64,000 bases of DNA from Clostridium sp. (GTDB taxonomy: Bacteria > Bacillota > Dethiobacteria > Dethiobacterales > Dethiobacteraceae), in NCBI GenBank assembly GCA_018335695.1, contig JAGXRV010000089.1, forward strand, positions 1 to 64,000. Reading direction: 5' to 3'. Of the stretch, positions 9,034 through 13,411 are shown piece by piece. The notes under the pieces were generated by a model, which had not been told where the DNA came from, made no database searches, and saw only the letters and a list, made by a program, of their open reading frames with translations. Numbering within the stretch: the stretch's first letter is position 1; every line of letters starts with the position of its first letter. The position numbers and the translations under genes were made by a program.

Positions 9034-10014
9034 TTATTTTGCAAAATGCAGCGGGGCAACACGCAACAAAGTACCGATTACGTCTCTCGTCTGTCGGCCG
9101 CCATCTTGATGCCCCGGCTGCAAAATTGGATCTCCAATATTAGCCAGACTGTCTGAACCGTTTGTCGCGTTAGCCAGGACATGATTATTTGAGAGAATTA
9201 CTTTTTCACCGCTCCGATTGTCATAAGCTACGGCGCCGAACGTACCGGTAGCAAAAAAATAATGGCCGATACTCAGTCCGGGTTGTGCCGGCCTCATTCT
9301 TATTCTTCTATCCGGGTGCGAACCGTCAGATGCAACCTGAGTGTCGGCAGTCAAAATGCCGGTTTCCACTACATCGGTGGGAATAGCTCCAATCATGGAA
9401 GGAACGGTTTCCTCAGCTCTGAGGTAGTGAACAGGCAATTTACGGGAAACAAGCACAGTTATGCAAAATTCTCCTGTTTCATAGCCGGCGACAATTTTTT
9501 TGCCGATACCAATCCCTACTACATTAGGCAGTTGGAGCATTTCATTTCCCCTAAGCCGGCAAAGTTCATGGAAAGATCTGAATTCATCGTTTTCCGGAGT
9601 TGCCAGGCGGTCAGCCGGAAATGTCAAATGGATATCCAGCGCCTGCAACACATCAGCAATCGGGTGATAAATCGTTACTTTAGCACTGCCGGCAAAGAGC
9701 AAGCCGATGGCACGGTTTGCTCCGTCCAACAGCAAAGAACCGCTGTCGCCTGCTTCTCCCATTTTTGAAGTGATAATCTGCTGAGTGAACTGAGCAAAGC
9801 GACCGAAAGGAAAGCCAATATTTACTGTGGCCCCAATCACAGCTACACGTCCGGTTGTGTAGCCGCTGGAGCGGCCGCTTTTTTTTACTAAAAGTGACAA
9901 TTCTGCTTTTGCTAGACCGTTAACGGCACCAATGCCTAAAATGTCGCTTTTTACGCTCTCTGGCTCAAGGGGCTTGGCCAAGGCAGCATCCAACTGATAA
10001 TTTTTTTTCTCCAT
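9034..10014 (-). CDS. Trypsin-like serine protease with circularly permuted domain order
   Basis: A 326-residue protein built from the two halves of a known bacterial trypsin-like family, in reversed order. In ordinary members, as I know them, the order is NVVGxG region, SNNHVLAN (catalytic His), then VDAA (Asp), SGRTTG and GDSGS (Ser). Here Asp is residue 9 (QLDAALA), Ser is 91 (GDSGS), and the NVVGIGIG block and His278 (NNHVLA) come afterwards. The frame is open through the join (about residues 130-155). All three catalytic residues are present, so an active enzyme is possible. There is no signal peptide. ATG 10014 follows GGGGTGA; an ATG at 10047 lacks a binding site and directly follows a stop codon. 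The role is unknown. Confidence 0.8.
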   Translation of the reverse strand: MEKKNYQLDAALAKPLEPESVKSDILGIGAVNGLAKAELSLLVKKSGRSSGYTTGRVAVIGATVNIGFPFGRFAQFTQQIITSKMGEAGDSGSLLLDGANRAIGLLFAGSAKVTIYHPIADVLQALDIHLTFPADRLATPENDEFRSFHELCRLRGNEMLQLPNVVGIGIGKKIVAGYETGEFCITVLVSRKLPVHYLRAEETVPSMIGAIPTDVVETGILTADTQVASDGSHPDRRIRMRPAQPGLSIGHYFFATGTFGAVAYDNRSGEKVILSNNHVLANATNGSDSLANIGDPILQPGHQDGGRQTRDVIGTLLRVAPLHFAK

Positions 10015-10187
10015 CACTTCACCCCATCGTGCATATTTCTCTATCATTTATCGTATGCAAAGAGCCGGAGGAGGTGTAAAAATTCAAGACGCAAAAAAGG
10101 AATAACGGTCATCAAAGCAGAAAATATCAGCAATTGAACTGAAAGAGAAAACCAGGCGAGATTATTTGCTATCAGGAGGGACATTGC

Positions 10188-11318: not shown

Positions 11319-12668
11319 ATGTACTTAGATAAATATAAAATACGTGAAGCTATGGCTGAGAAAGGAATCACTACTCAGACAGAGTTGGCCTGCAATTTGG
11401 GGATAACTAAGAATCAATTATCAGTGTTGTTATCAAAAAAATTTAATCCCATTAAAAGTAACGTAATGCTAATGTGTGATTATTTGGGGGTATCTCCGCT
11501 ATCAATTATTTCTGAGGAAATTCCTGAGGGATATCAAACTCGAATATTTGATTTGCTAAATAACGAAACAACAGCAAAAAAATATTGTCATCATTCAAAA
11601 CAGACGAAAGACACTAAAAGAAAAAAGGAAAACCTGCCTAATGCTAACTTAGAACTTGGTTATCCTGTTAGGGTGCTTGAACTTTTTGCAGGTGGAGGTG
11701 GGCTTGCATGCGGTTTAGAGAAGGCTGGCCTTAATAGTGTAGCACTGATCGAGATAGATAAGAAGTGCTGTGACACTCTTAAAAAGAACAGACCTTCCTG
11801 GAATATAATCAATGCTGACATACATGATGTTAATTTTTCCCAGTTTAATGTAGACGTTGTTACGGGTGGCTTCCCATGCCAAGCATTTAGTTATGCCGGT
11901 AAGAAGCTTGGGTTTGAGGATACTCGTGGAACATTATTTCATGAATTTGCAAGGTGCCTAAAAGAGACAAGACCTCTTCTTTTTATGGCTGAAAATGTCA
12001 GAGGATTAATTAGTCACGACCATGGCAAAACCCTAAATACAATTCTAAGGGTGTTTGCAGAGCTCGGCTATAAAGTCCAATATAAACTTCTCAATGCAGT
12101 AAATTATGGTATACCTCAAAAGAGAGAAAGGATTGTAATAGTCGGCACATTGGCTGGAGTAGATTTCGAATACCCTGAGAAAGAAGAGGCGGTAAAAACT
12201 ATTAGAGACGCTTTAACTGATGTGCCGCCCTCCGAGGGGATGCAATACTCTGAAAACAAGAAGAGAGTACTGCAACTCGTCCCGCCTGGCGGATGTTGGC
12301 GTAGTTTGCCTGAAGATATTCAAAAATTTTACATGGGTAAAAGCTATTATTCAAGTGGTGGACGCACTGGTATGGCGAGAAGACTATCTTGGGACGAACC
12401 AAGTTTGACGTTAACATGCTCGCCCACACAAAAACAGACAGAGCGTTGTCACCCTGAGGAAACACGCCCACTTACAGTAAGAGAATATGCCAGAATACAG
12501 ACATTCCCTGATGATTGGATCTTTGCAGGCACAATTAGCGATAAATACAGGCAGATTGGCAATGCAGTACCTGTCGAGTTGGGCTATAAATTAGGCGTGC
12601 AGATCGTCCAGGCCATATATGCTTTTAAAAGTAGGATTGAGTCTGCGGAACAAGAAATTTTCGGCTAA
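11319..12668 (+). CDS. HTH-C5 DNA cytosine methyltransferase (type II)
   Basis: A 449-residue fusion. Residues 1-68 form an XRE-like helix-turn-helix (TQTELACNLGITKNQLSVLL). From about residue 115 it is a 5-methylcytosine methyltransferase: motif I LELFAGGGGLACGLEKAG, motif IV GGFPCQAFSYAG with the catalytic Cys, motif VI ENVRGL, motif VIII QKRERIVIVG, and motif X GNAVPVELG. N-terminal HTH domains of this kind (M.SsoII, M.EcoRII) repress their own gene. The recognition sequence cannot be read from the protein; the partner nuclease suggests a GGWCC- or GGNCC-like site. AGGGAGG precedes the ATG. Base composition is more AT-rich than the neighbours, typical of mobile restriction systems. Confidence 0.93.
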   Translation: MYLDKYKIREAMAEKGITTQTELACNLGITKNQLSVLLSKKFNPIKSNVMLMCDYLGVSPLSIISEEIPEGYQTRIFDLLNNETTAKKYCHHSKQTKDTKRKKENLPNANLELGYPVRVLELFAGGGGLACGLEKAGLNSVALIEIDKKCCDTLKKNRPSWNIINADIHDVNFSQFNVDVVTGGFPCQAFSYAGKKLGFEDTRGTLFHEFARCLKETRPLLFMAENVRGLISHDHGKTLNTILRVFAELGYKVQYKLLNAVNYGIPQKRERIVIVGTLAGVDFEYPEKEEAVKTIRDALTDVPPSEGMQYSENKKRVLQLVPPGGCWRSLPEDIQKFYMGKSYYSSGGRTGMARRLSWDEPSLTLTCSPTQKQTERCHPEETRPLTVREYARIQTFPDDWIFAGTISDKYRQIGNAVPVELGYKLGVQIVQAIYAFKSRIESAEQEIFG

Positions 12669-12688
12669 ACTGAAAGTCATAGATACAG

Positions 12689-13396
12689 CTAAAAGTTAAG
12701 TTTTTCTTCTATCTCTTTAGCAAGCTCTTCCACAACTTCTTCTAAGAAGTTGCTGCCGTCGATTCCAAGTGCAACTTCACCGATCGCTCGAATCAAATCA
12801 TGGTAACAGTTTTCTGCACCTGTTAAACGGTGCCAAAAATCCTTACCTATAATAACAGGATAATCTTTGTCAATTTTTTTGTAGTGATAACTAAGTTCCT
12901 GAGGAGTGCCATACATTACACCTACAATGAGATCGCCGATGTTTAACTGGAGATTATTAGCTCGTGCGATATTCTTGATGTTTTTAAAATTACCAATGAT
13001 TGAGCCTACATCTCCACTGTTTATAGTGCTAGGTCCTGACTTTAGTTGGCAGTATTTCTTTCGTCCATCCAAATGGTCAATAAATTCAATATCTATGCCT
13101 TGTGTTGTGGAGCCAAATCCTCCTAAAACATTACTACAAAACTTTTGAGTGTTCTGACCAAATGATGTAGATATTGAAGTTCCTAGTGCCCTTGGATAGA
13201 CTAAAGCTCTGGCCATGCTTTTTGGGTCACTATTGCCAGCAAAAAAGTTAGCAACATAACTAATCAGGAAAGGGTTAATCTTAAACTCTTTCAAATTCCT
13301 AAGCTTCATTGTATTGTTAATATGTTTTGGTACTATTTCTTCTTTGAAAAACCTTTGAGCCTTTGCTAGGACTTCGTCTCTCAATTGCTGTTCCAT
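12689..13396 (-). CDS. Type II restriction endonuclease, Eco47II-like
   Basis: A 235-residue nuclease convergent with the methyltransferase (20 bases between stops). The core GIDIEFIDHLDGRKKYCQLKSG holds the PD-(D/E)xK arrangement, with acidic residues before and QxK after the hairpin, followed by PSTINSGDV. This agrees with the Eco47II family, members of which cut GGWCC-type sites; the exact specificity is an inference. Two ATG codons are in tandem (13399, 13396); GGGGGAG is better spaced for the second. The gene starts only about 15 bases after the leuB stop on the same strand, so it could be transcribed from the leuB promoter. Confidence 0.82.
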   Translation of the reverse strand: MEQQLRDEVLAKAQRFFKEEIVPKHINNTMKLRNLKEFKINPFLISYVANFFAGNSDPKSMARALVYPRALGTSISTSFGQNTQKFCSNVLGGFGSTTQGIDIEFIDHLDGRKKYCQLKSGPSTINSGDVGSIIGNFKNIKNIARANNLQLNIGDLIVGVMYGTPQELSYHYKKIDKDYPVIIGKDFWHRLTGAENCYHDLIRAIGEVALGIDGSNFLEEVVEELAKEIEEKLNF

Positions 13397-13411
13397 CATT
13401 GCTCCCCCAAG

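Follow-up and report, generated by a model that had tools for sequence, protein, structure and literature searches.

In the window, by which we mean the whole stretch of 64,000 nucleotides analysed here, a single open frame on the minus strand (10047-9034) encodes a putative trypsin-like serine protease. From its longest ATG, at 10047, this frame would be translated into 337 aa; the in-frame ATG at 10014, which gives 326 aa, appears the likelier start compared with the upstream one, since it is preceded by the box GGGGTGAA, which resembles the boxes of the two nearest relatives. Counted from 10014, the chain presents Asp9 (in LDAALAKP), an SGR motif, Ser91 (in GDSGS), a linker, the motif NVVGIGIG at residues 164-171, and His278 (in NNHVLAN), in keeping with the motifs, the residue numbers, and the order within a single frame that a preliminary description of this DNA had given. 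The features are collected in Table 1. No second homologue was found in the window's genome.

Table 1. Features of the permuted protease gene in the window, with the evidence for each
Feature	Position	Strand	Evidence
Whole permuted protease gene	9034..10014	minus	326 aa + stop; colinear in 11 genomes
Shine-Dalgarno-like box GGGGTGAA	10018..10025	minus	Sequence; similar box in L002 and L003
Catalytic Asp9 codon (Asp102 type)	9988..9990	minus	Unchanged across 11 permuted and 24 aligned normal-order sequences
Catalytic Ser91 codon in GDSGS (Ser195 type)	9742..9744	minus	Invariant; aligns with streptogrisin GDSG
Catalytic His278 codon in NNHVLAN (His57 type)	9181..9183	minus	Invariant
Residues 1-129: barrel 1 strand 6, inter-barrel connection, barrel 2 (old C-terminal half)	9628..10014	minus	AF2 elements; streptogrisin match
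Residues 130-142: new linker between old C- and N-termini	9589..9627	minus	12-16 residues in 11/11; low pLDDT
Residues 143-225: old N-terminal helix and NAL1_N domain	9340..9588	minus	Pfam PF25608; NAL1 match
Residues 226-255: poorly ordered loop before barrel 1	9250..9339	minus	pLDDT <50 at 239-257
Residues 256-326: barrel 1 strands 1-5 with catalytic His; new C-terminus after strand 5	9037..9249	minus	Alignment; AF2

When the protein was scanned against Pfam and NCBIfam, no model scored above its cut-off, the match to Pfam PF25608 (NAL1_N, E = 5.5e-4) lying below the curated one, and neither NCBIfam nor PADLOC gave a match. Trypsin-fold homology holds for each half, since in searches with a profile of the permuted family the Asp/Ser half matches streptogrisins (best E = 1e-9) and the His half matches rice NAL1 (E about 1e-6), with PDB chains of NAL1 aligned at profile positions 144-283. 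Judged from its sequence, the protein belongs with the NAL1-like serine proteases of the chymotrypsin fold but has a circularly permuted order. The triad of S1/PA proteases is described in the linear order His, Asp, Ser (PMC3434108), and because the window protein has the order Asp, Ser, His, we call it a permuted relative rather than an ordinary S1-like member of the PA clan.

Eleven genomes from 8 genera, the window's and 10 others, show the permuted order over the full length of the protein, and all of them belong to the family of the window's genome. The closest named relative is a contig of a Dethiobacter sp. MAG (L031), and on this ground the window is assigned to a Dethiobacter-like family. 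The other 10 proteins are 50-79% identical to that of the window, and Asp9, Ser91, His278, and the GDSGS motif are invariant in the alignment of the 11, which bears out the earlier claim of a circular permutant that keeps every catalytic residue. Among 20 genomes of the family, the permuted gene is intact in 11, decayed in 1 (G002), and absent from 8, a distribution that marks it as dispensable, and a normal-order copy was found in none of the 20. In the decayed locus (L025), which belongs to the window's genus, the frame is broken about 70 residues in; the remainder is missing, and larB-like sequence follows directly. The permuted form is no single oddity: it is fixed in the Dethiobacter-like family, where it stands in for the normal-order gene. 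The dN/dS ratio between three same-genus copies is 0.17-0.19, with both halves constrained, the linker least so, and the two catalytic segments evolving most slowly of all parts of the protein. By these sequence comparisons, the permuted gene is under purifying selection, and a reading of the window gene as a pseudogene was considered and rejected.

The surroundings of the gene are partly conserved. With neighbours named according to their sequence motifs, a gene resembling isocitrate/isopropylmalate dehydrogenase lies near the permuted gene in 11 of 11 genomes, and AddB/AddA-like genes and a GTPase-like gene lie close to it in most of them. In four genomes that do not carry the permuted gene (G010, G015, G016, and G019), the neighbouring genes are present and joined directly. 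No clear functional partner was found among the neighbouring genes, and a link to the larA/larB-like genes was rejected because these lie on the opposite strand and are adjacent only in the window's genus. Elsewhere in the window, a gene resembling C5-cytosine methyltransferases with an N-terminal helix-turn-helix region (11319-12668, plus strand) faces a 236-aa gene (12689-13399, minus strand), possibly its restriction enzyme, the two being inserted between a TPR-like and a dehydrogenase-like gene. The same two flanking genes adjoin in the same-genus genomes G001 and G003, which have neither member of the pair, so that 11319-13399 looks like a recently gained restriction-modification island.

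Outside the family of the window's genome, the permuted order was found neither in 98 genomes of the class nor in a 299-genome sample of the phylum, where the order was taken from the match table, nor in 77 other named loci, nor in viral contigs, and homologues outside the family align to the permuted protein as two swapped pieces. Of 80 named loci, 3 are permuted and colinear like those of the window's family, while 77 are His-first. Moorella and Halonatronum are among the sources of normal-order relatives. A search of phages and viral contigs for the permuted form returned none, and the viral-contig homologues that contain both halves are all His-first; a giant-phage homologue considered as half a protein is actually a normal-order frame of 336 aa. 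The Aeropyrum coil-shaped virus, an archaeal ssDNA virus, encodes a protein related to the His half that is annotated as a putative serine protease (HE681887.1, 10532-11044). Plasmid homologues match the permuted protein in pieces. Five of the plasmid matches (H5, H7, and H9-H11, from Streptomyces, Tsukamurella, and Rhizobium plasmids) are NAL1-like His-half stretches under genes annotated as DNA/RNA non-specific endonucleases, possibly a protease-nuclease fusion.

A tree built from 119 rows groups all 11 permuted proteins in a single clade nested among normal-order proteins, with an SH-aLRT value of 99 for both halves joined and of 98 and 94 when the halves are treated separately. This single nested clade, together with the absence of the order from the genomes, loci, and contigs surveyed outside the family, disposes of the possibility, left standing by the preliminary description, that the arrangement is ancestral or common. 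The permuted order is instead derived, the normal one being common to plants, to relatives in archaea and bacteria, and to other chymotrypsin folds, and as far as the data show, the permuted form would have a single origin, in the Dethiobacter-like family or early in its history.

The chymotrypsin fold comprises two six-stranded beta barrels that hold the catalytic triad between them, and both the His57-type and the Asp102-type residues belong to barrel 1. In the permuted protein, the chain is cut between strand 5 ('DVIGTLLRVAPLHF') and strand 6 ('DAALA'), immediately ahead of the catalytic Asp, and since both residues are part of barrel 1 and the break falls in the strand 5-6 loop, the cut lies inside this barrel. 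On this point we depart from the preliminary description, which had placed the cut in the loop between the two barrels: the inter-barrel connection is intact within the Asp/Ser half, and the permuted profile matches streptogrisin B onward from just past strand 6. In many normal-order relatives, an insert of about 45 residues, variable and in part helical, interrupts the strand 5-6 loop, while in some (e.g., L108) hardly anything separates the two halves there. Because the insert varies in many relatives and is nearly absent in some, we deem this loop a naturally tolerant site. At the other end of the rearrangement, the old C- and N-termini are fused in frame, as had been proposed, by a linker of 12-16 residues in 11 of 11 proteins, which has a mean pairwise identity of 18% and runs into the old N-terminal helix.

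The AF2 model of the permuted protein, computed from an input alignment (A3) of 4 full-length permuted rows and 85 half-chains, has a pLDDT of 87.2 and a pTM of 0.88, and only residues 239-257 fall below 50. It places strand 6 at residues 11-15, barrel 2 at about 42-118, and the other strands of barrel 1 toward the C terminus, the assignment to barrels being inferred from the fold. The model of a normal-order relative (L035) contains the same elements in rotated order. Compared with the PDB streptogrisins and alpha-lytic protease, the permuted model aligns over 101-114 columns, about half the length of these targets, with TM scores by target of 0.42-0.49, versus about 255-265 columns, nearly their full length, and 0.76-0.84 for the normal-order model, whose top match, the rice NAL1 structures, extends over nearly 380 columns. 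Half-length matches are what a sequential aligner is expected to return for a permuted chain. Among the 50 PDB matches listed for the permuted model, none exceeded a TM score of 0.30 by query, so no solved structure of the permuted connectivity stood out among them. The models suggest that, once folded, the two segments make up the two-barrel enzyme known from the normal order, with an ordinary triad whose residues follow one another as D-S-H along the chain.

Misassembly, against which the preliminary description had cautioned, and chance are further readings of the order. The genome to which the window belongs is fragmented, the window being one of its 101 contigs, which would favour such a reading, but ten further, independent assemblies hold the identical order end to end with the junction in frame, and we discount it almost entirely. 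The usual arrangement NAL1_N, His, Asp, Ser has become Asp, Ser, linker, NAL1_N, His, and the route may have been, though we say this less surely, a tandem duplication whose copies were then fused in frame and lost their outer halves. Permutation by duplication predicts both tandem copies and partly duplicated forms (PMC3320104). In G210 (L237), two normal-order genes of the family stand back to back in different frames, their ends overlapping by a few bases, and in the Anaerolineae loci L039 and L072, normal-order proteases carry within the same chain a second NAL1_N after barrel 2, at the C terminus. The duplication steps that the route needs thus occur in the protein family, in lineages other than that of the window. 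As to the L237 pair itself, one copy has SNCHVLAN for SNNHVLAN and the other SGAASG for SGRTSG; in other Chloroflexi, the second NAL1_N stretch is a separate frame just downstream of the protease. The tandem-duplication origin put forward earlier is therefore plausible as regards the existence of a tandem pair in a relative, while the window and its lineage yielded neither remnants of the lost halves nor a duplication intermediate. The same protein could have been produced by fission and fusion, a recognised route of permutation (PMC3320104), or by reinsertion elsewhere of a circular DNA copy. This we hold possible, given that the locus of the permuted gene differs from that of the normal-order genes in the same class and that a partly duplicated form was not seen in the family; against it stand the G210 pair and the C-terminal NAL1_N duplications of the Anaerolineae, and, for fission and fusion in particular, separately encoded halves were not seen.

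In the permuted chain, assembly of the triad requires both chain ends to be packed together, and the gene has been lost or has decayed in some members of the family, as might befit a degenerate pseudo-enzyme retained as a binding protein or scaffold; we consider this quite unlikely, as 11 proteins with an overall identity of only about 50% all keep the triad and GDSGS unchanged, and the slowest evolution is seen in the two catalytic segments. Chains acting in trans or as domain-swapped dimers, so that the permutation would reflect a swapped oligomer, are likewise unlikely: the shortness of the linker and the several chains per PDB entry of the plant homologue NAL1 speak for such an arrangement, but the monomer is modelled confidently as one unit, and the linker combines a near-constant length with a poorly conserved sequence, as in a simple connection. 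In our preferred reading, the product of the gene is very probably a functional NAL1-like serine protease of the PA clan, located in the cytoplasm, and a natural circular permutant of single origin. The cytoplasmic location is suggested by the lack of an apparent signal peptide, and the most likely role is that of a regulatory or processing protease predicted to cleave an intracellular substrate. Plant NAL1 proteins degrade TOPLESS-type corepressors (PMC12915138). In one relative (L004, 1279-2484, in G012), the new N terminus carries, immediately ahead of the catalytic Asp, a fused beta-sandwich-type CarboxypepD_reg domain (E = 4e-10), and another relative (L006, 1501-2694, in G009) has a similar N-terminal extension with a weak CarboxypepD_reg match; judged by these fusions, the permutation has opened a position next to the active site at which further domains can be attached.

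The protein shows the marks of a natural circular permutant: the homologous segments are swapped, both halves are present, the old ends are joined, the order recurs in independent genomes, and it is derived. Full-text searches, outside whose reach most subscription journals lay, returned no natural case of circular permutation in the chymotrypsin fold. With modest confidence, we propose that this is the first natural circular permutant known in the PA clan, a predicted active Asp-Ser-His protease that would build barrel 1 from both ends of its chain and reuse its N terminus, possibly for regulation (CarboxypepD_reg in G012). Protease clans are defined in part by the linear order of their catalytic residues, given for S1/PA proteases as His-Asp-Ser (PMC3434108). 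A conserved Asp-Ser-His form indicates that evolution can break a much-studied fold inside barrel 1, beside the active site, and retain the fold. Permuted and normal-order proteins, roughly 40-50% identical per half, make up a natural pair with which the effect of connectivity on folding, the autonomy of the barrels, and catalysis can be tested. Tools that depend on order miss permuted proteins, as seen here, where no Pfam or NCBIfam model scored above its cut-off.

As for known systems, NAL1 (NARROW LEAF 1) of rice and maize and its bacterial relatives (Pfam NAL1_N/Nal1_C) share with the permuted protein the NAL1_N domain and the trypsin-like His, Asp, and GDSGS, but NAL1 and the normal-order bacterial relatives are arranged as NAL1_N-His-Asp-Ser, whereas the permuted protein reads Asp-Ser-NAL1_N-His. 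The streptogrisins and alpha-lytic protease (S1) have in common with it GDSG and, as its model predicts, the chymotrypsin double-barrel fold; they differ in having no NAL1_N and in following the order His-Asp-Ser instead of Asp-Ser-His. The same kind of evolutionary event is known from other folds, namely, saposin/swaposin and the DNA methyltransferases (PMC3320104), so that what would be new here is not circular permutation as such but a natural case of it in the chymotrypsin fold.
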